Shown piece after piece: positions 8,807 to 22,746 of a DNA stretch of 22,791 bases. Where the stretch lies: positions 1 through 22,791 of IMG/VR virus record IMGVR_UViG_3300025671_000575, one strand, 5' to 3'. The DNA comes from a virus. Numbering within the stretch: position 1 is the first letter of the stretch; each line of letters opens with the position of its first letter. The notes beneath the pieces are model-generated. The model ran no database searches. It was given only the letters and a program-made list of their open reading frames with translations, and had not been told where the DNA came from. A program made the translations under genes and the position numbers.

Positions 8807-9448
8807 TTAATTTTTTACTTGTAAATCAACAAAAGAATCAGCATCTCCTAGTTTTCCAACTGGAATAAAATTCATTGCAATACAATATCGTGTTTTATTG
8901 GATTTGTGAGTGCCTACAATATGATACATTTCACTAGGAAAAAATAACACCATATCTGATACAGGCTTAACCATAATTTCTTTAGTATTGTACATATTCC
9001 ATTTGTTAGGTAATATATTAAATCTTTGATCAGAAGTATCTTCAAAAAAAATAGCTGCAGATTTTTCATCCATCTGTGGATAATAAACTCCACTAAACAT
9101 ACAGTTCCTATGGTTGTGAGGAAAAGAAGATTGACCTTTACTTGTTTTACTAATCCAAGACGTAGTTAATTTAAATTCGTTATGTCTATATTCAAAAGCT
9201 TCATTTTTATATTCTGTAAAAGCATTTAATAATTGTTTTTTTAATTTAGGTAATTTATTTAAAACTTGTTTATCATAAGAAGTGTGAGTTACATGTAGGT
9301 AATCTTCTGTCTCTTTTTGTGCAGAGTTTTGGTAAGCACAGGCTGTCTCTAGTTTTTCTAACACTTTTATTGTTTTAGCCGTGTCTGTATTACCCAACAC
9401 TTGAGAATAAATAGCTTTAGAAAAAACTGGAGTAATTTTACCTTTCAT
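8807..9448 (-). CDS. 2OG-Fe(II) oxygenase-like protein, 2OG-FeII_Oxy_5 type (HxH)
   Basis: This is the last gene of the oxygenase island. I choose the ATG at 9448 (213 aa) because it forms an ATGA overlap with the preceding stop, with GGTGG just upstream; in-frame starts at 9472 and 9457 would need a longer overlap. The C-terminal half fits the 2OG-FeII_Oxy_5 (PF13759) pattern: SSFPHNHRNCMFSGVYYPQ (107-125) gives H111 and H113, VLFFPSEMYHIVG has distal H176, and TRYCIAMNF has R187 as the likely 2-oxoglutarate anchor. The second ligand position is His rather than Asp, as I recall for this family. The N-terminal ~80 residues are helical and charged. The reaction would be hydroxylation coupled to 2-oxoglutarate decarboxylation; the substrate is unknown. 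Confidence 0.8.
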   Translation of the reverse strand: MKGKITPVFSKAIYSQVLGNTDTAKTIKVLEKLETACAYQNSAQKETEDYLHVTHTSYDKQVLNKLPKLKKQLLNAFTEYKNEAFEYRHNEFKLTTSWISKTSKGQSSFPHNHRNCMFSGVYYPQMDEKSAAIFFEDTSDQRFNILPNKWNMYNTKEIMVKPVSDMVLFFPSEMYHIVGTHKSNKTRYCIAMNFIPVGKLGDADSFVDLQVKN

Positions 9449-10002
9449 TGCCACCATGGTCCTTTCTTCCAAATTGCTAATGTTATTCTTTCTCCTTTTG
9501 TAACTGGCGTAACTTTGTGTGCCATAAAAGATGGAAATACTAATACTGAACCTGGTTTACTAAATTCTTTTATATGTAATGATTCCCCCCACCAAATATA
9601 TAGATCCCCACCCTCATATTTTTTTTCAGATAAATTAATTAAAGTTGTAAGTTTAGATGTATAACCTTTGTCAAAAAACTCACCATCATAGTGCCACTCG
9701 TATTGACCTGCTACATCAGCTTTGTAAATATTATGATTGACACAATCAAATCTTGTAAAATTTCTAGTGGTAAAATTAAAAAATTGATTATTAGTGCTAT
9801 CAATTAAATCTTCAATATTGTTTATAACTTCACATTTTCTTAAAGTATTTAAATCTAACACTGAAACCTTTGCAGTCTTAACAGCTTTTTTAGATGGTTT
9901 GTCTTGTAATTTAGAATTATGACTTGCTAAAATAAATTTGTTTATTTTTTTTATTTGAGCAGGTTTGTATACATCTTGATACCAATAATAACAAAACTTC
10001 AT
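9445..10002 (-). CDS. 2OG-Fe(II) oxygenase, PKHD/prolyl-4-hydroxylase type
   Basis: The 185-aa product has a complete canonical site. YEWHYDGEF (101-109) gives H104 and D106, VFPSFMAHKVTPVTKGER has distal H162, and R172 would bind 2-oxoglutarate. LINLSEKKYEGGDLYIW (121-137) is the typical 'L.Ls....y.GG.l' strand of PKHD-type enzymes. This is one of the clearest active-enzyme candidates in the island, and it resembles the first oxygenase of the island (14914-15477) in the order and wording of these motifs. The start forms an ATGA overlap with the degenerate paralogue upstream, and its stop overlaps the next ATG in the same way. Likely a cytoplasmic, Fe(II)-dependent hydroxylase of a protein or small-molecule substrate. 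Confidence 0.88.
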   Translation of the reverse strand: MKFCYYWYQDVYKPAQIKKINKFILASHNSKLQDKPSKKAVKTAKVSVLDLNTLRKCEVINNIEDLIDSTNNQFFNFTTRNFTRFDCVNHNIYKADVAGQYEWHYDGEFFDKGYTSKLTTLINLSEKKYEGGDLYIWWGESLHIKEFSKPGSVLVFPSFMAHKVTPVTKGERITLAIWKKGPWWQ

Positions 10003-10484
10003 GTATAATTAATAATTAATTTTATTCCTCTTACATAATTTTGTTGTACAAGAGTTGCATATTTAGAGTTTTCAAATAAAACCATTTTATTATCTTCAGG
10101 GTCAATTTTAACTTTATCAATACCGTTCTCTATAATTAATTTACCATTGTTGGAATCTAAAAATAAAACTGCTGTTTTACAATCAAAAGATCTGTCTCTT
10201 GTCAAAGGAGTCTCATAAATAAAAGGTTCTTTCGTAAACAAAATAGCTTTGACTTGAGTTATCATATTAGGTTTTAATTTTTCTAATATAGGAAATATCT
10301 CATCAAAGAATGGTGAGGTCTTTTCATGCCAATCAAAAAAGGTATGTTGAAAATAATATTTATCTGTAAAAGTTTGTTCGTTATAATAAAACCAAGCAAA
10401 CTCATTTGATCTAATGATTTTTTTAATATTATTATAAGTATCTTCTTCTAAAAAATTTTTTATTTCTCTAATGTTACTGTCCAT
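9999..10484 (-). CDS. Degenerate 2OG oxygenase-fold protein lacking metal ligands
   Basis: The 161-aa product matches the layout of the 197-aa oxygenase at 12029-12622: an N-terminal SNEFAWFYYNEQTFTDKYY block (26-44), a CKTAVLFLDSNNGKLIIENG core (102-121) and a terminal GIKLIINYT strand. In related phage enzymes the core is preceded by an HxD and followed by a distal His before 'R.viNfn'. Here there is no histidine at all after residue 53; the HxD region reads YETPLTRDRSF, and the distal region reads ENSKYATLVQQNYVRG. The Fe-binding triad is therefore absent. The reading frame is intact, with a strong AAAGGAG ribosome binding site, so this is not an obvious pseudogene. It may be a regulatory or scaffold subunit, or a binding-only domain. 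Overlaps the unknown 114-aa gene by 25 bp. Confidence 0.72.
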   Translation of the reverse strand: MDSNIREIKNFLEEDTYNNIKKIIRSNEFAWFYYNEQTFTDKYYFQHTFFDWHEKTSPFFDEIFPILEKLKPNMITQVKAILFTKEPFIYETPLTRDRSFDCKTAVLFLDSNNGKLIIENGIDKVKIDPEDNKMVLFENSKYATLVQQNYVRGIKLIINYT

Positions 10485-10804
10485 TCTAACTCCTTTGCTA
10501 TGCTTTCTAAATGTAAAACTTTAATTTTATTTTTTAATATGTATTTATGTAATTCTTTAATATCAATAATCCACCATTGACTTAAAGTTTCTACAACCAT
10601 TTTATCTGCTTTAGTTCGAGTAGATCCTTTTTTAGCTGTCGTCCCATCTTTCTGAACTTTTAAAGGTCTTACATCAAAACGAAATCTTTCATTGTATCTA
10701 TCTTTTAAAATACCAGACACATCCCACAATTGCGTTTTACGCGTTCTTTCATTAGGAAACCTAGCATCTTTTAAATATTTTTTAGCAAATGTTGCTGTAC
10801 TCAT
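10460..10804 (-). CDS. Unknown basic protein inside the oxygenase island (114 aa)
   Basis: A 114-aa lysine-rich protein begins MSTATFAKKYLKDARFPNER and continues VSGILKDRYNERFRFDVRPL. The C-terminal half holds KADKMVVETLSQWWIIDIKE (residues 65-84) and ends LESIAKELEWTVTLEK. It has no HxD/H pattern and is the only member of the island that does not look like an oxygenase. I recall similar small proteins in marine T4-like and podoviral genomes, without function. Its high basic content would suit binding to nucleic acid or an acidic partner. The start lies just downstream of a 26-bp tandem duplication that carries its ribosome binding site. It overlaps the degenerate oxygenase gene by 25 bp. Confidence 0.75.
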   Translation of the reverse strand: MSTATFAKKYLKDARFPNERTRKTQLWDVSGILKDRYNERFRFDVRPLKVQKDGTTAKKGSTRTKADKMVVETLSQWWIIDIKELHKYILKNKIKVLHLESIAKELEWTVTLEK

Positions 10805-10856
10805 TATTATTTAATCCTTTATATATTCTTTATTATTTAATCCTTTATATATTCTT
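10805..10856. repeat. Perfect 26-bp tandem duplication carrying the ribosome binding site
   Basis: Positions 10805-10830 and 10831-10856 are identical 26-base units (plus strand begins TATTATTTAATCCTTTATAT). On the coding strand each copy holds the Shine-Dalgarno sequence AAAGGA (10820-10815 and 10846-10841). The copy nearer the gene is spaced 10 bases from the ATG at 10804. The repeat fills most of the 70-base gap between two island genes, one of the larger gaps in the window. It could be a slippage duplication that is neutral or that changes translation of the 114-aa gene. Confidence 0.95.
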
Positions 10857-10874
10857 TTATCATACATTTCAATA

Positions 10875-11531
10875 TTAAGATACTTTAAATTTAAGATTGC
10901 CCGATACTGTGATTCTATAATCATTACTTGTATAAAATGGAAAAACCTGGTGTGATTGTTTTGCAGGAAACATAATCATTTTGCCTTCAAAACTTTTATC
11001 TACATTCAAAAGATCACAACGTATCTCTCCAGTATAATCTACATTTAAAAATGCAAATTTAGAAGTATGATTGTATCTAACATTTAGTGGATCTTCTTTA
11101 ATATCACTAAAACATTTTTCTTCTTTTTTTAAATCGTACGGAATCTTTATAAAGACAACAAATGAATACAAACCTGAATGAGTGTGAGGAGGATTAAACT
11201 CATGTTTCTTTTGAAAGTTTACCCATAGGTCATCAATATAAAATTTACAAGATTGTGATAAAACATTTATCCTTTGCGTGTGGGCAAATATTATAGGGTT
11301 AGCTAAACAGTCTATCAAAATAAAATTTTTAAATTCATCACTAATATCATCTATATGGTATTCTTTTTTAATGTGGCCAATTAAACTTTTGTTAGCATCA
11401 CGACTAGCTTTGTTAACAGCTTTTTTTAACCATGCAAATGCTTTAGGTGGAACTACAAAAGGTACAGCTCGATTACCACTTTCAATAATAGGTTTTGCTT
11501 TATCCCAATTACTTGACATCACTTCTTTCAT
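10875..11531 (-). CDS. 2OG-Fe(II) oxygenase-like protein with HTH metal-ligand pattern
   Basis: The 218-aa product has EFNPPHTHSGLYSFVVFIKI (111-130) with H116 and H118, KMIMFPAKQSHQVFPFY with distal H194, and NDYRITVSGN with R206. This is the 2OG oxygenase double-stranded beta-helix layout of the 'NPPHtHsG' phage family, in which the acidic ligand is replaced by His, as in two other island members. It carries a longer insertion (about 133-170) between the core strands than its relatives. The start is uncertain: ATG 11531 overlaps the upstream gene by 23 bp, whereas ATG 11519 (residue 5) overlaps less and has AAAGAAG nearby. Likely a hydroxylase; substrate unknown. A 70-base gap with a tandem repeat follows. 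Confidence 0.78.
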   Translation of the reverse strand: MKEVMSSNWDKAKPIIESGNRAVPFVVPPKAFAWLKKAVNKASRDANKSLIGHIKKEYHIDDISDEFKNFILIDCLANPIIFAHTQRINVLSQSCKFYIDDLWVNFQKKHEFNPPHTHSGLYSFVVFIKIPYDLKKEEKCFSDIKEDPLNVRYNHTSKFAFLNVDYTGEIRCDLLNVDKSFEGKMIMFPAKQSHQVFPFYTSNDYRITVSGNLKFKVS

Positions 11532-12036
11532 ACCAAAATATTTGCACTGTTTCTCTGTCTTGTGCTTCGCTAGTTACTGCTGATGTGCCATGTAATATCT
11601 GATTATTATTGATTACGCAACAATTATATGAAGGAAAAAAAGTATTAATCTGAGGATCTTCATCTCTTTTATATAAAAACAATCCACCCCAATTAGGGTA
11701 CCATTCTTCATTTAAATAAATTGTAGCTGCAGCCACTCTATGTCCATCATCGTGCATGGGTATATAACTATGTGGAGGCCAACGATAATAATTAACTTGC
11801 ATACCGAACTTTTTACTAGGGGGAAAAATTTTGCTAAATATTTTTCTTACTTGATTATATATGTTTAAGTTCTGATCTAAAGGTAAAATTGGAATATAAG
11901 GTGCTCTTCTAATAAACTCTGGCCAATGATAACTTGTCTGCCATCTTTTTTCTTCAAGAGTATCTTGGACATAAGTTTTTATTTCTTTAATAAGTTTATC
12001 AGGTAATACATTAGTATGAAAAACAATATTATTCAT
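11509..12036 (-). CDS. 2OG-Fe(II) oxygenase, prolyl-4-hydroxylase-like
   Basis: I choose ATG 12036 (175 aa) because it gives an 8-bp overlap with the preceding stop (ATGAATAA) and starts the recognisable domain (MNNIVFHTNVLPDKLIKEIK). A longer frame extends upstream to 12117 but would overlap the neighbour by almost 90 bp. Motifs: YIPMHDDGHRVAAATIYLNE (91-110) supplies H95 and D97, the 'L' core is WGGLFLYKRDE, and NNQILHGTSAVT has distal H149. R161 in DRETVQIFW is the likely 2-oxoglutarate anchor. All residues needed for Fe(II) and cosubstrate binding are present, so activity is plausible. No Shine-Dalgarno sequence is visible, which fits translational coupling. Substrate unknown. Confidence 0.85.
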   Translation of the reverse strand: MNNIVFHTNVLPDKLIKEIKTYVQDTLEEKRWQTSYHWPEFIRRAPYIPILPLDQNLNIYNQVRKIFSKIFPPSKKFGMQVNYYRWPPHSYIPMHDDGHRVAAATIYLNEEWYPNWGGLFLYKRDEDPQINTFFPSYNCCVINNNQILHGTSAVTSEAQDRETVQIFWYERSDVK

Positions 12037-12622
12037 TAGTTGTAAAATCAAAGTTGATGACTGTTCTTTTGTCATATTTAATTGGATTATTGCCTGCATG
12101 ATAGATGTCTCCATCAAAATAAATTGATTTACCTTGTTTAGGTGTAACTCTTTTTATAGTTTTATATCCTTTGTATAAAAAAGTAGGATCACCTTCTTTA
12201 TATCTCTTATCAAAGAAAAAAGTATCTCCATCAGAGTCTTCTACGTAATAAATTAAACTTTTGTAATTTTTTTCATTTTCTAAATCTACATGAGGGTAAT
12301 TATATTTATCTTTTGTATGACCTGGTTTTTGTAAAGTTCTTCTAATTCTAACTCTTAAAATATCTCGTATAGGTATGTTTAAATCTGGTAAAATAGAATC
12401 TACAAAAAGATAATATGCATCTGAATTAACTCCTTTAGGTGCTAGAAACAATGTATGAACATAAGCTGGAGTCAAAGTAATATTTTTATTACCTGGTGTA
12501 TTAATTTCTTTATCACTTAAAATAGTTCCATAGTAAAACCAAGGAAAAGTATCGGAGTTTAAAATATCTTTTATTTTGTTTTGTTTATCTAGCGAAACTA
12601 AATTATTTAATATCTTTATCAT
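12029..12622 (-). CDS. 2OG-Fe(II) oxygenase of the phage 'FPWFYY' type
   Basis: The 197-aa product begins with a helical lid region containing SDTFPWFYYG (23-32), a signature I recall from cyanophage and marine-phage oxygenases. The active site is complete: NYPHVDLENE (108-117) gives H111 and D113, IYFDGDIYHAGNNP gives distal H165, and KRTVINFDF has R176. The core strand is SLIYYVEDSDGDTFFFD (122-138). It is the active-looking counterpart of the ligand-less protein at 9999-10484, with which it shares the N-terminal block and the C-terminal strand. An AAAGGG ribosome binding site lies eight bases upstream of the ATG. It overlaps the upstream gene by 20 bp and the downstream one by 8 bp. Confidence 0.87.
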   Translation of the reverse strand: MIKILNNLVSLDKQNKIKDILNSDTFPWFYYGTILSDKEINTPGNKNITLTPAYVHTLFLAPKGVNSDAYYLFVDSILPDLNIPIRDILRVRIRRTLQKPGHTKDKYNYPHVDLENEKNYKSLIYYVEDSDGDTFFFDKRYKEGDPTFLYKGYKTIKRVTPKQGKSIYFDGDIYHAGNNPIKYDKRTVINFDFTTNE

Positions 12623-13235
12623 ATATAGACCCTTTCAATTTATTATGATCCCAATTTACAGGATGCGTCCAAGAAGACAAGGAGTATTTAGTTCCAGATA
12701 TTAATGGATAAGCTACGTGTGGATGAGTAACCTGTGAGGGCCAAACAAAACACCATCCTTTCGGTATATCTTTGTTAGTCCATTTCTGCCTTGGAAACTC
12801 TACATGACATCCTTTGAAATTAGTATTTAATTTTACATTCAAAGTAAATTTACTTGTATCATTATGTAATTTTACATTTTGTCCTTTATGATGATATTTA
12901 ATAATCATTGGACAAAACCATCCTGAAATATAACTACCTTGAAATTTAGTAAGCAACAAAGGAGATATTCTTTCTTTGTATTGTATACAAAAATTTTTAA
13001 ATAAATCTTTTTCTATATCTGTAAAAAACAATGTGTTCCAAGGACAATTATCTGTTTCACCTTCTGATTGATTGTAAACAATATAAGGTGCAAATTCTTT
13101 TTTCTTCTCTTCACAAATAGCTACTAATTCATCACAAAAAGATTCAGTATAAAAAGGAGTTATTAATATATCCTTTATAAATTTGTATTTCTTACCACAA
13201 TCAGGGTGTATACCTTTGTTATATATCACAGTCAA
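12603..13235 (-). CDS. 2OG-Fe(II) oxygenase, lysyl/prolyl hydroxylase-like (HND, Lys anchor)
   Basis: The 210-aa product carries VKLHNDTSKFTLNVKLN (121-137) with H124 and D126, and CFVWPSQVTHPHVAYPLISG (162-181) with H171/H173 as distal ligand candidates. K183 in GTKYSLSSW stands where Lys replaces Arg as the 2-oxoglutarate anchor, as in prolyl 4-hydroxylases. The FPRQKW insertion (147-152) lies between the core strands. It resembles the 198-aa oxygenase at 14321-14917 in the segment from the 'WPS' turn to the final strand. The start is weak: no ATG exists near the 5' end, and the frame opens with TTG at 13235 or GTG at 13229, neither with a Shine-Dalgarno sequence. It overlaps the upstream stop by up to 17 bp, so re-initiation is likely. 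Confidence 0.82.
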   Translation of the reverse strand: MTVIYNKGIHPDCGKKYKFIKDILITPFYTESFCDELVAICEEKKKEFAPYIVYNQSEGETDNCPWNTLFFTDIEKDLFKNFCIQYKERISPLLLTKFQGSYISGWFCPMIIKYHHKGQNVKLHNDTSKFTLNVKLNTNFKGCHVEFPRQKWTNKDIPKGWCFVWPSQVTHPHVAYPLISGTKYSLSSWTHPVNWDHNKLKGSIYDKDIK

Positions 13236-13743
13236 AATTAAAAGAAATAATAGTTTTTAAAGTATTAGTTATTTGAGGTGGAGCTCTATGTTTTACATAA
13301 GAAGGAAATACAATAATATCTCCTTCATATACAGTTGGCATCATAACTTTTTTAGTTACAGGATCTACAAGTTCTGTGCCGATACATTTTTCATTATACT
13401 TCACATAATAAACTCCAGTAAATGTACATCCATGAATATGCCAGTGATGAGTGTTATCTTTTTTATATTGTTGAAACCAAATATCTTTGAACTGTAATGT
13501 TTTAAAATCCATCTGTGTTAGAAAAGTTTCAAAACTTTTCATAAAACTAGGTAAAAACATTTCTACCCATGAACGACTAGGATTGGTGCTGTTGTGAAAA
13601 TCACATTTATAAATGTCATCCATGTTTACATTATTTTTTTTATTAAAAGGTTCTTGTTTAAAATGTGTTAATAATTTGTTTTTAAACTTTTTATGTTGTT
13701 TAAATGGAAACTTAATTAATTTATATTGAATTATCTCTTGCAT
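13219..13743 (-). CDS. 2OG-Fe(II) oxygenase-like protein, 2OG-FeII_Oxy_5 type (HIH)
   Basis: I use ATG 13743 (174 aa, MQEIIQYKLIKFPF). A TTG at 13764 has GGAAG just upstream and cannot be excluded. The PF13759-like core is DNTHHWHIHGCTFTGVYYVK (96-115), with H102 and H104 as likely metal ligands; GDIIVFPSYVKHRAPP has distal H152, and K163 in TLKTIISFNF takes the anchor position. The carboxylate of the classic HxD is replaced by His, as I recall for the family. A basic N-terminus (residues 8-37) may contact substrate. It sits between two oxygenase genes with overlaps of 13 and up to 17 bp. Role inferred to be hydroxylation, with lower certainty than for the HxD members. Confidence 0.8.
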   Translation of the reverse strand: MQEIIQYKLIKFPFKQHKKFKNKLLTHFKQEPFNKKNNVNMDDIYKCDFHNSTNPSRSWVEMFLPSFMKSFETFLTQMDFKTLQFKDIWFQQYKKDNTHHWHIHGCTFTGVYYVKYNEKCIGTELVDPVTKKVMMPTVYEGDIIVFPSYVKHRAPPQITNTLKTIISFNFDCDI

Positions 13744-14324
13744 ATAGATGGCATACCCAACCAAATTCTTCCATCGTAGGGTTCTTTATCCTTTCTTTTA
13801 ACATCATTGTAATGAAAAAACACTTGACCACATTCTCCTTTTGGTAAAGGTTTTCTCCAGTGTTCTAGTTCTTCACCTTTGTAAACTAACATATCACCAG
13901 GTTTTAATATAATTTTTTTATTTTCTACATAGATAGGCCATGTTTCTCCACCTAGATTTAAAGTTGTAGAAAATTCACAAGGTATTCTATCTTTGTGTTT
14001 ATGTAATTCATTACCTTTTTCGTATATTCTTGCATAAGAATAAGTAGGCACTAAACTTAAATTTGTAATTTTTTCCATTGTAGGTTTTAACATAACCAGT
14101 AAACATTCAAGAGCTGGATCTCCATACACACAATATATTTTTTCTTTAAACATAGGATCGCCAAAAGTTCCATAAGTTGTATCTAGTGCATGTATTAAAC
14201 ATTTCTCTCGTTGTAAAATATATAACAAATCTCTTCTAAATCTTAAATAATTAAAAAAATAATGAGCCATATCTTTAGATATAACTTTCTTAATTACTTG
14301 ATAATAATCTTTTTTAAAACTCAT
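13731..14324 (-). CDS. 2OG-Fe(II) oxygenase-like protein (HKD...EHWR type)
   Basis: I choose ATG 14324 (197 aa, MSFKKDYYQVIKKVISK) because it makes an ATGA overlap with the preceding stop and has AAGG upstream; an in-frame extension to 14351 is unlikely. Motifs: YARIYEKGNELHKHKDRIPC (97-116) supplies H110 and D112, STTLNLGG is the next strand, and PGDMLVYKGEELEHWRKPL (142-160) has distal H155. QVFFHYND (167-174) closes the fold, with Gln where Arg is common. I recall this 'DLEHWREP...QVFLHY' arrangement from cyanophage and bacterial 2OG oxygenases. The active site looks intact for iron, while the cosubstrate anchor is less clear. It overlaps the next gene by 13 bp. Confidence 0.83.
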   Translation of the reverse strand: MSFKKDYYQVIKKVISKDMAHYFFNYLRFRRDLLYILQREKCLIHALDTTYGTFGDPMFKEKIYCVYGDPALECLLVMLKPTMEKITNLSLVPTYSYARIYEKGNELHKHKDRIPCEFSTTLNLGGETWPIYVENKKIILKPGDMLVYKGEELEHWRKPLPKGECGQVFFHYNDVKRKDKEPYDGRIWLGMPSICKR

Positions 14325-14917
14325 AGCCTTGGTGTCCCGTATTCTACCCACCCAGTTATAATATATTTATCTCCTGATATTGGAGGATTGCCTCTATGAG
14401 TATGAGTAAAACCAGATGGCCAAAGCAATAAAGTATTTCTTTTAGGTTTAAATCTACATTTTTGATACAAAAATTCTGTTTCTCCACCTTCTTTAATGTC
14501 ATTTAAATAAACCATAAAAGCCATAATTCTATTTCTATATTGCATGTTTGTGTTTTCACAATGCCAACTATGATAACCTTCACCTGGTGAAGTCTTTTGT
14601 ATTTTAATATCAAAGATAGTATGTTTTTGAAAATGATCTAAAATAGAATATTTTTTTGCATAAATAGGATAAATATCTTTAAAAAAATGATCTATAAAAG
14701 GTTTATTAACATAGGGTAAATCTAACATATTATCAAAGAAAGGATCTGAAATTGTTGATACAGCTGTATCTGCAACATCCCATGAACGTAAATTACGTTC
14801 ACCTACAATACCTTCTTTTTCGCATCGTTTGTAATATTTTAAATATGTATCAACCATTTTGTCTGGCAAAGCATTTTCAAATATAGCGATATGATCTTCT
14901 CGTAATGTACTTTTCAT
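14321..14917 (-). CDS. 2OG-Fe(II) oxygenase, prolyl-4-hydroxylase-like (HCE variant)
   Basis: The 198-aa product has PGEGYHSWHCENTNMQYRNR (111-130), in which H119 and E121 occupy the HxD position with Glu replacing Asp. MVYLNDIKEGGETEFLYQ (135-152) is the hallmark P4H strand-turn, LLLWPSGFTHTHRGNPP (163-179) gives distal H172/H174, and K184 in GDKYIITGW is the 2-oxoglutarate anchor, as in prolyl 4-hydroxylases. I recall 'WHcEn...YLNdv.eGGeTeF' as a conserved subfamily, so Glu is probably normal rather than inactivating. Both ends are ATGA overlaps, with the first oxygenase upstream and the HKD-type enzyme downstream. The subfamily is a good candidate for peptidyl-proline or other peptidyl hydroxylation. 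Confidence 0.88.
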   Translation of the reverse strand: MKSTLREDHIAIFENALPDKMVDTYLKYYKRCEKEGIVGERNLRSWDVADTAVSTISDPFFDNMLDLPYVNKPFIDHFFKDIYPIYAKKYSILDHFQKHTIFDIKIQKTSPGEGYHSWHCENTNMQYRNRIMAFMVYLNDIKEGGETEFLYQKCRFKPKRNTLLLWPSGFTHTHRGNPPISGDKYIITGWVEYGTPRL

Positions 14918-15477
14918 ACAAATGGATTACCTCTCATCCAAAGAACTAAAGAGTATCTAGTGCCCCTAGTAACAGGTTTAACCATATGGTACGTATAAGA
15001 TGGGAAAACTACAATAGATCCTTGTTCCCTGACTTCTTTACATTCAACTTTTCTTTTATTAATATCAAACATAAATTGTCCACCACTATAATTTTCTTTA
15101 TCAGATAAAATAAGTGACATAGATAACTTTCTAATAGTGTTAGATTTGTCAGGTTCTTCATAACTATCTACATGCCAATCATAAAATTGATTTCTGCCAT
15201 ATATAGTAAATTGCGGATCTTCTGTTCCACTTAATTGTAAATTCCAACCTGCATTTTTATTAGCTAAATGTATATAAGGTTCACATATATGCCTAACCCA
15301 AGAGTCTCTTAAAAAAACAACATCTGAATCTCTTAAATTAGAGTTTTTATTTTCTCCTTCGTATCCACCTACCAATCCTTTTTGTTTGGGTAAGTTTAAA
15401 CCTTCATTAATAATAAAGTTACACATACTTTTAGGTATGACTTTAGGAAAAAACCAATATGCATATTTAAATATCAT
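14914..15477 (-). CDS. 2OG-Fe(II) oxygenase, PKHD type; first gene of the island
   Basis: The 187-aa product is a textbook small 2OG oxygenase. YGRNQFYDWHVDSYEEPD (93-110) gives H102 and D104, LSMSLILSDKENYSGGQFMF (118-137) is the PKHD core, and VVFPSYTYHMVKPVTRGTRY (156-175) gives distal H164 and R174. All Fe(II) and cosubstrate residues are present, so activity is expected. It closely resembles the PKHD gene near the other end of the island (9445-10002). The ATG at 15477 follows an AAAGG ribosome binding site that lies inside a hairpin (15480-15497), so the entry into the island may be under translational control. The stop overlaps the next ATG as ATGA. Substrate unknown. Confidence 0.9.
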   Translation of the reverse strand: MIFKYAYWFFPKVIPKSMCNFIINEGLNLPKQKGLVGGYEGENKNSNLRDSDVVFLRDSWVRHICEPYIHLANKNAGWNLQLSGTEDPQFTIYGRNQFYDWHVDSYEEPDKSNTIRKLSMSLILSDKENYSGGQFMFDINKRKVECKEVREQGSIVVFPSYTYHMVKPVTRGTRYSLVLWMRGNPFV

Positions 15478-18019: not shown

Positions 18020-20197
18020 TTAAGCAGCGGTGTCAACTTCTTGCCAACCTGGTGGAACAACTGGTGCTGTGCCAGTATTTACTTCATTCCAAATCAATGT
18101 TTTAAGGCTTCCTTCAGCCATTGTCAAGGCATTTCCTGACAATAATACATTAGCATTTCCTGTAACTTCGTCAACATCATTTTCTTGTATGGTCATTTCT
18201 TGACCACTTACTTCAGCTATAGTATTTGCATCTAATACTGCTGTTCCAAGATTGATTGTTGCAGCTTGTGCATACCCTGTAGCATCAAAATATTGACCAT
18301 TACCCCAAGTAGATTGACCCCAAGTTTGCTCACCCCATGCTATATCTGTAATTGTACCTGTATTAGCATCACCTTGAGTTACAACGTCATCTAACGTTGC
18401 AGTCATTTCTATACCTATAATATTAGCATCAGGTGCAGGATCCACGTCTCCTTCCTGCATACCCATTACTAAAGTATCTACTTGTTGATTACCATATACT
18501 CCATAACCCCATGCAGAATTACCCCAACTCGCTGCTGAAGTAGCTGAAACTTCTACAATTGTATTTGCATCTAAATCAGCTGTGCCCTCATTCATTGTCA
18601 TGGCCATTGATGCAGATACATCATTTAAAATAATTGTTGAACCATTGGTTCCATCAAAATGAAGTAAGTTTACTGTATTTGCATCCGTGCTAAATTCTGA
18701 TGTTGGAACAGTTATTGTAGCTTCTGTAACTGGGTTATATCTTGCAATATTAGATTGTCTGTATTCATCAATATAGGCTGAAACTGCATTGGCCCCATTT
18801 AAGTCTGCTCCTATAAATGTTCTATTTGAATTATTGTTATTTACTAAACCGCCACCTATAGCATTTCTTCTTGTTCCTCTTGACCATAATGCTCCGTTGT
18901 TTGAAGCATCTCTAGCAAAAGCTAAATGCATCCATGTATTGTTTGAAAATAAACCTGATGAAGATGATAACTGTGCACCATCTTCGTAAAGAATTAAATT
19001 TCCATTGTTAATTCCTATTGAATAACCATTACCACTTGTATTTCTTCCATCCCAAAGAATACCTGTTTGTGTTGTAGCATTTGAAGCATACCACCAAAAT
19101 TCTATAGTAAATGCTCCACCATCTAGACCATCAACAGTTCCTGATGCATTTACGTAATCACCTGTACCATCTAATAATAATGAAGCTGTTCCAAATTCTT
19201 TTTGAGCCGTAGATAATTGTGCATCTCCATTTACAGAGAATTCATTACCACCTATTGAAGGATTAAATACATCTACAACCGCTTCTTGATATTGAAGCGT
19301 TGCGGTCATAGGTTGACCGGTTACATCTGCAACAAATGATGCAAAACCTTCTGCATCACCTTCAGCAGCAGTCATTTCTTCACCAGTTAATACATCAGTT
19401 TGACCATCAGCATTAATAGTTAAATCGTCTAATGTAGCTGTTAAACCTATTCCAGTTAAATCAACTACTAATCCTGATATACCCCAAGTTTCATATCCCC
19501 AGGTATCAGAACCCCAACCTATATTAATTTCATTATCTACAGTAACAGCACCAAGATTTGCAGACATTTGAATTCCGTCTGAAATATATGCTGTACCAAA
19601 AGCACCCCAACCAGTGAAGCCCCAAACAGAACCTCCCCAACCAGAATTTATTTCGTTATCAATTGTTACTGAACCTGTATTTGAATTTAATTCTTGACCT
19701 GTTGGAATTACTTGTCCAAAACCATTCCATATGTTTTGACCCCAAGTAAGTCTACCCCAACCTTCGTTAATTTCTCCGGCTGTTGTTTCGTCACCTAAAG
19801 TAGCTGTAAATTCTATTCCTGTTGGTAATGCAGTTGTATCGGATAAATCTCCCCATTCACCATTACCATAAGAAGTTGCTCCCCAACCTTTTCTTACAAA
19901 TGATTCTGCTTGACCTTGATTTATATCTAAAGAAAAACTAGTTGGAATTAAATTTACATTTTTTAAATCACCCCAACTTCCAAAGTTCCAAGTACGTCCT
20001 CCAAAACCAGAATTAACTTCAGCAGTTACAGTTGGCTCACCTATAGAAGCGTCAAGGTTTCCACCTCCGCCCCAATAAAAATTACCATAGGCATCTCTAC
20101 CCCAGTAAGTGTCATTTGGATTTGTTACATTAACGTAAGCATTACCAAACTCACCCCACTTAAGGTATCCAAAAGTATTACTGCCCCATCCGGCCAT
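18020..20197 (-). CDS. WG-repeat tail fibre protein with LamG-like domain
   Basis: The 725-aa product is built of short Trp-Gly repeats: GWGSNTFGYLKWGEFG (3-18), GWGATSYGNGEWGD (104-117), GWGRLTWGQNIWNGFG (146-161), GWGGSVWGFTGWGAFG (186-201), GWGSDTWGYETWG (227-239), then SWGNSAWGYGVYG (557-569) and AWGEQTWGQSTWGNG (620-634). These alternate with 'G.EMTATLDD'-like strands. A concanavalin/LamG-like domain occupies about 325-490 (LLLDGTGDYVNASG, FTIEFWWYA, NTWMHLAFARD, AYIDEYRQSNIARY). LamG folds often bind sugars, so this is a probable receptor-binding or fibre protein at the virion surface. The consensus AGGAGG ribosome binding site is paired in a hairpin next to the ATG. Confidence 0.82.
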   Translation of the reverse strand: MAGWGSNTFGYLKWGEFGNAYVNVTNPNDTYWGRDAYGNFYWGGGGNLDASIGEPTVTAEVNSGFGGRTWNFGSWGDLKNVNLIPTSFSLDINQGQAESFVRKGWGATSYGNGEWGDLSDTTALPTGIEFTATLGDETTAGEINEGWGRLTWGQNIWNGFGQVIPTGQELNSNTGSVTIDNEINSGWGGSVWGFTGWGAFGTAYISDGIQMSANLGAVTVDNEINIGWGSDTWGYETWGISGLVVDLTGIGLTATLDDLTINADGQTDVLTGEEMTAAEGDAEGFASFVADVTGQPMTATLQYQEAVVDVFNPSIGGNEFSVNGDAQLSTAQKEFGTASLLLDGTGDYVNASGTVDGLDGGAFTIEFWWYASNATTQTGILWDGRNTSGNGYSIGINNGNLILYEDGAQLSSSSGLFSNNTWMHLAFARDASNNGALWSRGTRRNAIGGGLVNNNNSNRTFIGADLNGANAVSAYIDEYRQSNIARYNPVTEATITVPTSEFSTDANTVNLLHFDGTNGSTIILNDVSASMAMTMNEGTADLDANTIVEVSATSAASWGNSAWGYGVYGNQQVDTLVMGMQEGDVDPAPDANIIGIEMTATLDDVVTQGDANTGTITDIAWGEQTWGQSTWGNGQYFDATGYAQAATINLGTAVLDANTIAEVSGQEMTIQENDVDEVTGNANVLLSGNALTMAEGSLKTLIWNEVNTGTAPVVPPGWQEVDTAA

Positions 20198-20212
20198 AGG
20201 AGGTTACCTCCT
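20198..20212 (-). promoter_or_regulatory. Hairpin masking a perfect AGGAGG ribosome binding site
   Basis: On the coding strand AGGAGG (20212-20207) pairs completely with CCTCCT (20203-20198) across the three-base loop TAA; the ATG at 20197 follows directly. The Shine-Dalgarno sequence is the full consensus and sits right after the stop codon of the preceding gene (20217-20215). Ribosomes finishing the upstream gene would open the stem, so this is a plausible coupling switch for the fibre gene. Confidence 0.6.
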
Positions 20213-20214
20213 AA

Positions 20215-20655
20215 TTAACCAGAGATCCTTAGAATCGCTGCAGTTGATGTTGGTGCTGGGAACTGAATTGTAAATGTACCAGAAGTTGCAGTTTTGTCTC
20301 CACCGAAATCTAATACAGCAACAGCTGCGTTAGCTTGAGTAGCAGATGTATTGTAAATCAATGCACCTCTAGCAGTTAAAGTTACACCAGTAAATGATAA
20401 GTTGTCAAAGTCAACTCTTGCTACACCAGCAGTGATTGATGTTCCTGCATTAACTAACGCACCACCACCTGCTGTGTATTGACCAGAAGCAGACACTTCT
20501 TGAGAAGTAGTGTATGATGTTGTAGCAGAAGTTAAAGTCGCACCTGCGGTATAAAGAGCTAATTTAAACACGTCTCCACCAGATTGTTTGAAATTGTGAT
20601 CACCTTCCAAAAGTTCTTTTTTGAAAGAGTTCGCAATTGCCTGAGTTATAGCCAT
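20215..20655 (-). CDS. Virion structural protein ('LALYTA' type, 146 aa)
   Basis: The 146-aa product begins MAITQAIANSFKKELLEGDH and has DVFKLALYTAGATLTSATTS followed by beta-strands (VARVDFDNLSFTGVTLTARG, then ALIYNTSATQANAAVAVLDF). I recall near-identical layouts ('F.vELL.g.H.F......fkiALYts.At') as common structural proteins of marine and other tailed phages, often near tail-fibre genes. No catalytic motif is visible. An AAGGAG ribosome binding site is well placed, and the gene is followed after only 17 bases by the WG-repeat fibre. A role in the tail-fibre attachment site or as a small virion protein is plausible but unproven. Confidence 0.78.
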   Translation of the reverse strand: MAITQAIANSFKKELLEGDHNFKQSGGDVFKLALYTAGATLTSATTSYTTSQEVSASGQYTAGGGALVNAGTSITAGVARVDFDNLSFTGVTLTARGALIYNTSATQANAAVAVLDFGGDKTATSGTFTIQFPAPTSTAAILRISG

Positions 20656-22694: not shown

Positions 22695-22715
22695 AGTTTT
22701 CTCCTATTAAAATTG

Positions 22716-22735
22716 TGTGGGCCCGAAGGCCCACA
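22716..22735 (-). terminator. UUCG-tetraloop hairpin after the upstream gene
   Basis: On the coding strand TGTGGGCC (22735-22728) and GGCCCACA (22723-22716) form a perfect 8-bp GC-rich stem closed by the C(UUCG)G tetraloop, an exceptionally stable RNA fold. It lies 11 bases past the stop of the partial gene and is followed by CAATTTTAAT, a weak T-run. It could be a partial intrinsic terminator, as seen after capsid genes in some podoviruses, or an mRNA-stabilising 3' end. Confidence 0.75.
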
Positions 22736-22746
22736 TTAATTATTTA

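Follow-up and report, generated by a model that had tools for sequence, protein, structure and literature searches.

In the viral DNA analysed here (22,791 bases, referred to below as the window), the Shine-Dalgarno sequence (SD) and the first base of the start codon of a 725-aa fibre-like gene are predicted to lie within a compact RNA hairpin, placed immediately downstream of the stop codon of a 146-aa gene. A hairpin at this position is conserved with changed sequence among most relatives carrying the same type of fibre gene, its mismatches have the character of sense-strand RNA, and the start codon is predicted to be hidden. We consider it probable that this intercistronic hairpin conceals the fibre start until a ribosome translating the upstream gene opens it, an arrangement that would amount to translational coupling. 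All the genes at the junction lie on the minus strand, on which the upstream gene ends in GGT TAA (stop at 20217-20215), followed by a single T, TAGGAGG (20213-20207), TAA (20206-20204) and CCTCCTA (20203-20197), whose last base opens the fibre ATG (20197-20195). The sequence-only reading that drew attention to this site had described AGGAGG, TAA and CCTCCT as fully paired next to the fibre ATG and as starting directly past the upstream stop; read on the minus strand, the pairing is correct, and only one base separates the stop UAA from the hairpin. The same reading had pointed out that CCUCC is also the core of the anti-SD, which any sequence that pairs with an SD would be.

Table 1. Genes and RNA elements at the fibre junction of the window.
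Feature	Position	Strand	Details
Adaptor protein gene, SU10 type, 217 aa	20674..21327	-	ahead of the 146-aa gene; PF24175, E 1.6e-24
Upstream gene, 146 aa	20215..20655	-	PHROG 644 (function not annotated), E 1.9e-19; stop UAA 20217-20215
Downstream gene, 725 aa, fibre-like	18020..20197	-	WG motifs
Hairpin, 5' arm	20207..20213	-	UAGGAGG; contains the Shine-Dalgarno AGGAGG (20212-20207)
Hairpin, loop	20204..20206	-	UAA
Hairpin, 3' arm	20197..20203	-	CCUCCUA; ends on the A of the fibre AUG
Outer stem in the window genome	20189..20223	-	UCUGGUUA (20223-20216, part of the stop included) with UGGCCGGA (20196-20189)

The window hairpin has a 7 bp stem with a predicted energy of -9.4 kcal/mol at 37 C and -13.1 kcal/mol at 16 C, and the outer stem covers the remainder of the AUG, a feature that is not general in relatives and is absent from the fold of HTVC027P. 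The pattern TAGGAG-N(2-6)-CTCCTATG occurs once in the window against 0.01 occurrences expected from shuffles, and when 31 gene starts on the minus strand of the window were compared, that of the fibre had the most stable local fold (the runner-up is at -6.7 kcal/mol). The 101-nt neighbourhood as a whole folds unexceptionally (z -1.16, with 22 of 200 shuffles equally stable), so the signal resides in the placement of the hairpin and not in overall stability. Nor is the junction hairpin an intrinsic terminator, as the stem is followed by UGGCC with no run of U, and it is absent from the six terminator-like sites found; a search of Rfam returned nothing at the junction up to E 1 and two weak matches elsewhere. 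A GC-rich hairpin that is terminator-like on both strands is found at 22715-22736, directly ahead of a 93-aa gene.

The window virus is related to the Pelagibacter phages HTVC027P and HTVC023P, in a group related to viruses that infect SAR11. The predicted fold of the 146-aa protein is rich in beta structure (mean pLDDT 75.9); no solved relative was found by sequence, or by fold at E <1, and among viral fold matches the best were unnamed proteins (1.8e-6), followed by a 'structural protein' (1.5e-3) and weak matches to tail-collar fibre proteins (0.03 and above). The tail-collar matches of this model would fit an anchor role. Residues about 319-571 of the 725-aa protein match profiles of phage baseplate and virion proteins. 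By analogy, the adaptor gene just upstream suggests a partnership of anchor and fibre: in phage SU10 the adaptor gp11 carries long fibres built of a proximal gp12 trimer and a distal gp13 trimer (PMC9509320, in part), and the window likewise has an adaptor gene, then a small gene, then a fibre-like gene. This is an analogy of context only, and the role of the 146-aa protein is putative. Elsewhere in the window, twelve consecutive small ORFs occupy 8807-15477 on the minus strand; two of the four tested were above the Pfam cut-off, in 2OG-Fe(II) oxygenase families, and multiple genes of this type are described for HTVC023P-type phages (PMC9599517, in part). Two minus-strand gene starts within or edging this run, at 14917 and 15477, have local hairpins of moderate stability (-5.2 and -6.7 kcal/mol, respectively), and a 289-aa glycine-rich protein encoded at 15996-16865 matches PHROG 2295.

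Relatives of the junction were gathered through the 146-aa and 217-aa proteins and not through the hairpin. Of 207 loci with a match to the 146-aa protein, 202 gave a junction, and 149 of these were distinct; the counted set consists of 125 distinct junctions, window included, the remaining ones having come from a motif scan and been excluded. A hairpin was scored when it had at least 5 pairs, at least 2 of them G-C, a loop of 3-9 nt, GG in the 5' arm and a 3' arm extending at least to the base that precedes the start codon (-1 to +2 allowed). By this definition the local hairpin over the SD and start is present in 73 of the 84 junctions with the same fibre type, that is, in 60 of 71 of the WG class, which comprises all junctions outside the DRV and TVTV classes, and in 13 of 13 of the TVTV class. 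It is found in none of the 41 DRV-type junctions, where the downstream gene is a different one. The orthologous starts of the 146-aa gene and of the three genes preceding it, taken as controls, have it in 1 of 229 cases (p240 1/44, p120 0/19, p217 0/74, p146 0/92), and shuffling the spacer generates it in 314 of 4200 sequences (7.5%). The earlier proposal of a coupling hairpin is thus supported in part. A hairpin over the SD and start just past the stop is kept in relatives far above the controls, with pairing retained and sequence varied in the 73 junctions of the same fibre type. The condition which that reading named as refuting, loss of pairing with the ribosome binding site kept, applies to the local hairpin in 52 of the 125, 41 of them having the different downstream gene and 11 belonging to the WG or TVTV type.

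The junction between gp67 and gp68 of the cultured phage HTVC027P has the same 17-nt palindrome as the window, the sole case among 22 annotated starts on the plus strand in the portion of that genome analysed. In the portions covered of HTVC027P, HTVC023P and 023Pt_psg01, all 61 further annotated starts on that strand are without the hairpin, which, together with the single case among the controls and with the other starts of the window, led us to reject the idea that it is a general type of ribosome binding site in these phages. Eight more distant phage junctions, from 11 further records of which 3 Gordonia records were left out, also have no hairpin. The motif scan of viral contigs returned at least 120 stretches, and 49 of the 115 newly fetched loci also hold a gene of the 146-aa family, not necessarily adjoining the motif. 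In the other 66, viewing the contexts revealed no further gene family at which the motif clearly recurs among the matches listed; one of them, L221, is a fibre junction cut at the end of its contig. On a tree of the upstream protein (124 of the 125 rows) the type of downstream gene changes at least 9 times and the hairpin state at least 8 times, and the link between hairpin and fibre type comes down to 4 well-supported independent pairs (sign test, median p 0.5), too few to test it.

The hairpins themselves are far from uniform. Their stems measure 6-9 bp, the 5' arm starts within 5 nt of the end of the stop codon on either side, and the last base of the 3' arm is the A of the start codon in 15 of the 73, its U in 19 and its G in 39. 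There are 21 different loops of 3-8 nt, UAA being the loop in 26 of the 73. Examples include TAGGATG-GTAA-CATCCTA (L144) and TAGGAGA-TAG-TCTCCTA (L152) and, with the stop codon inside the arm, TAAGGAG-TAA-CTCCTTA (L029) and TAATAGG-AGTTA-CCTATTA (L062 and relatives). In 11 of the 73 (L029, L032, L053, L056, L060-L062, L067, L068, L077 and L080) the hairpin takes in the whole stop codon, which is always UAA; the last codon of the upstream gene is Ala in 9 of these, either GCA (4) or GCG (5), and its final two bases can extend the pairing to the U and G of the AUG.

When 49 distinct hairpin sequences are aligned, 83.0% of the cells pair, compared with 34-69% when the arms are slid out of register, and there are 4 doubly changed pairs where shuffles give 1.4 (a count reached by 3 of 500); these figures are indicative, the sequences having been picked for having the hairpin. 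The paired share is barely above that of the shuffles (83.0 vs 82.0%, a share reached by 11 of 500), and one slid version exceeds the true register in doubly changed cells (11 vs 7). The MAFFT alignment A1 misregisters the stop-including hairpins, which form one clade, so that their pairing is understated. We also tallied the inner seven pairs in 60 distinct 29-mers of the WG and TVTV classes, 4 of them without a register, and found 27 G.U, 2 A.C and 25 other imperfect cells beside 332 Watson-Crick pairs. The great excess of G.U over A.C favours sense-strand RNA, with the reservations that the choice of register somewhat favours G.U, that a C-to-T bias may add to it and that A is common at the innermost pair. 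From these comparisons the pairing looks conserved despite sequence change, and the hairpin appears to be selected rather than due to chance.

Predicted folding indicates that the start codon is mostly hidden whether or not the hairpin is present. The mean probability of the start codon being unpaired is 0.14 in the hairpin group, 0.14 in the DRV group and 0.15 in the other WG junctions, against 0.36, 0.44 and 0.40 in the respective nulls; in other contexts and sets the means reach up to 0.22. Control starts have values of 0.41-0.59 with nulls of 0.42-0.53, exceeding the null in three of the genes and practically equal to it in the remaining one (0.41 vs 0.42). With flanks of 60-200 nt, the SD is predicted to be unpaired at only 0.01 in the window and in HTVC027P. 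In the latter, despite the same inner hairpin, the complete start codon is rather accessible (0.41-0.60), so the hiding of the SD may be what matters there. The SD of the DRV group is scarcely better concealed than in its null (0.35 vs 0.39), with a value below the null in 25 of 41. When a ribosome at the upstream stop was modelled as a mask from -15 to +11 about that codon, the start value rose from 0.14 to 0.45 in the hairpin group and reached 0.28 in the DRV group and 0.38 in the rest, a partial release.

In most of the hairpin-less junctions examined the start codon is still predicted to be paired, often with the end codons of the upstream gene. In the DRV group, GCU (37 of 41) and AUA (34 of 41) near the end of that gene can form base pairs with AUGGC, joined in many junctions by pairing of UUAAGA and CUCU in the subsequent codons with the spacer and the SD; the same two codon positions in the hairpin group are mostly GCG (49 of 73) and AUU (44 of 73). 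The pairing of AUGGC with the Ala and Ile codons is absent in several DRV junctions, for example L002, L003, L065 and L081. Five of the 11 WG junctions without the hairpin have a Ser UCC codon able to pair with GGAG. Redrawing the upstream synonymous codons alone raises the DRV start value to 0.31. RNAalifold found no consensus structure in the DRV alignment, so the support for this fold comes from folding sequences singly and from the null tests; moreover, 29 of the 41 DRV rows are one clade, and the codon differences may have moved with exchanged modules. Pairing of this predicted kind fits coupling but not a fixed hairpin. It is conceivable, and we put it forward tentatively, that selection acts on the function and not on one structure, such that the start of any fibre-module gene stays closed unless the 146-aa gene is translated and the structure is rebuilt whenever the module changes. 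The forms would then be a post-stop hairpin in WG, a hairpin including the stop and often the last codon in 11 cases, and a stop-spanning fold with Ala GCU and Ile AUA in DRV; if so, the downstream partner would set the synonymous codons of the upstream gene.

The mechanism we favour, coupling through opening of the structure, can be outlined as follows. With the SD and fibre start hidden in the hairpin, a free 30S subunit would enter poorly. The ribosome finishing the 146-aa gene would stop on a codon that is part of the 5' arm or precedes it by no more than 5 nt, and break the stem, whereupon that ribosome or a following 30S subunit would start the fibre from its strong SD. Fibre synthesis would thus track synthesis of the 146-aa protein, by RNA unfolding, by reinitiation or by both, modes that each have supporting evidence in a review (PMC12548453, in part). 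We infer that both genes share one mRNA and that the fibre depends on its neighbour, and the strict coupling proposed in the sequence-only reading is to be taken in the same conditional sense. The reason may be, by analogy with SU10, to match the amounts of neighbouring tail parts. The frame of the fibre gene relative to the upstream gene is mixed among the 73 hairpin junctions (14, 27 and 32), which rules out fusion of the two proteins by readthrough or frameshift.

The same review covers coupled pairs whose downstream start is concealed by RNA structure, among them those of phage f1 (VII/IX) and MS2 (PMC12548453, in part). Like f1 VII/IX, MS2 coat/lysis and E. coli rpmI/rplT, the genes studied here are same-strand neighbours with a structured downstream ribosome binding site (PMC12548453, in part). 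The junction differs from those pairs in its compact stop-start hairpin of 6-9 bp and in the other predicted pairings that replace it in relatives, and coupling is here deduced. No earlier report of this junction was found in the literature searched, and the portion of the HTVC027P transcriptome paper available to us contains nothing on gp67 or gp68. The junction is a well-conserved instance of an already known type of control. It offers natural hairpin variants, alternative structures predicted for a single site and, in a cultured phage, an identical inner hairpin, so that the question of unfolding versus reinitiation becomes testable with small reporters, and answering it would reveal how the ratios of tail parts may be set as marine phages exchange fibre genes.

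The strongest rival to coupling is that the hairpin mainly acts as a throttle, setting a fixed low output of fibre without dependence on the upstream gene. Structure directly past a stop can reduce coupling (PMC12548453, in part), and so the hairpin might indeed act in this way; local folds are at -8 kcal/mol or stronger in 64 of the 73 hairpin junctions, and in a model of the MS2 coat hairpin the output falls from 21.7 per min at -7.93 kcal/mol to 5.9 at -9.49 kcal/mol (PMC9894550, in part). A throttle, however, needs no fixed place next to a stop, yet the start lies 13-23 nt past the stop, a short distance on the same strand, in all 73 hairpin junctions; in addition, the predicted pairing partner in many of the hairpin-less junctions is the upstream coding end, which a translating ribosome must open. 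For these reasons we regard this explanation as unlikely. Appreciably less probable is an operator at which a phage protein binds the hairpin and represses fibre translation in the manner of the MS2 coat protein. The size and placing of the hairpin, with SD and AUG in one short stem-loop, do resemble the MS2 operator (the TR hairpin at the replicase start), which likewise covers the start of a coupled gene and at which coupling and repression act together (PMC9894550, in part). A protein site would be expected to keep its loop or bulge, whereas here no loop is constant, stem lengths and registers vary, and hiding persists with quite different structures. The stem of the MS2 operator has a bulged base. 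Unlike it, our junction has neither a bulged base nor a constant loop, and it belongs to a dsDNA phage.

Structures that hide a start are also known from T4 and related phages, where the SD and/or AUG of genes e, soc, 49 and I-TevI lie in a helix much as at our junction, and the gene e structure has been compared among T4-related phages (PMC3014915, in part). A temporal gate of the e/soc kind would keep the fibre silent on long early transcripts, and a late promoter in the 5' arm would yield an open mRNA. Whereas the gene e and I-TevI structures silence early transcripts (PMC3014915, in part), the junction hairpin stands between two same-strand neighbours within one block of tail and head genes, and no sigma-70-like site was found at the hairpin on the minus strand, in a type of scan that misses phage promoters; we consider such a gate very improbable. 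Least credible of all is a chance complement of a strong SD kept only through common descent: many of the sequences are closely related, but the 7.5% of the shuffles against 73 of 84 junctions, the controls and the pairing kept through base changes all contradict it. Just as improbable as the temporal gate is that the palindrome serves as DNA, marking the border of a fibre module open to exchange and acting there in recombination or protein binding. Exchange does take place at this boundary: L010 and L012 are 98.5% identical over 1149 aligned columns up to 5 nt inside the fibre gene. On the other hand, DNA symmetry prefers no strand, contrary to the 27 G.U against 2 A.C (25 others) among the deviations, and none of the 41 junctions that carry the other type of gene has the hairpin. 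After the nearly identical stretch of ~1.15 kb, L010 and L012 differ by about 387 nt and then resume at 92.8% identity. The difference is an added N-terminal fibre segment of ~129 aa, inserted 5 nt inside the gene with the hairpin left intact, and the TVTV-type proteins appear, from this comparison, to be WG-type proteins plus an extra N-terminal part.
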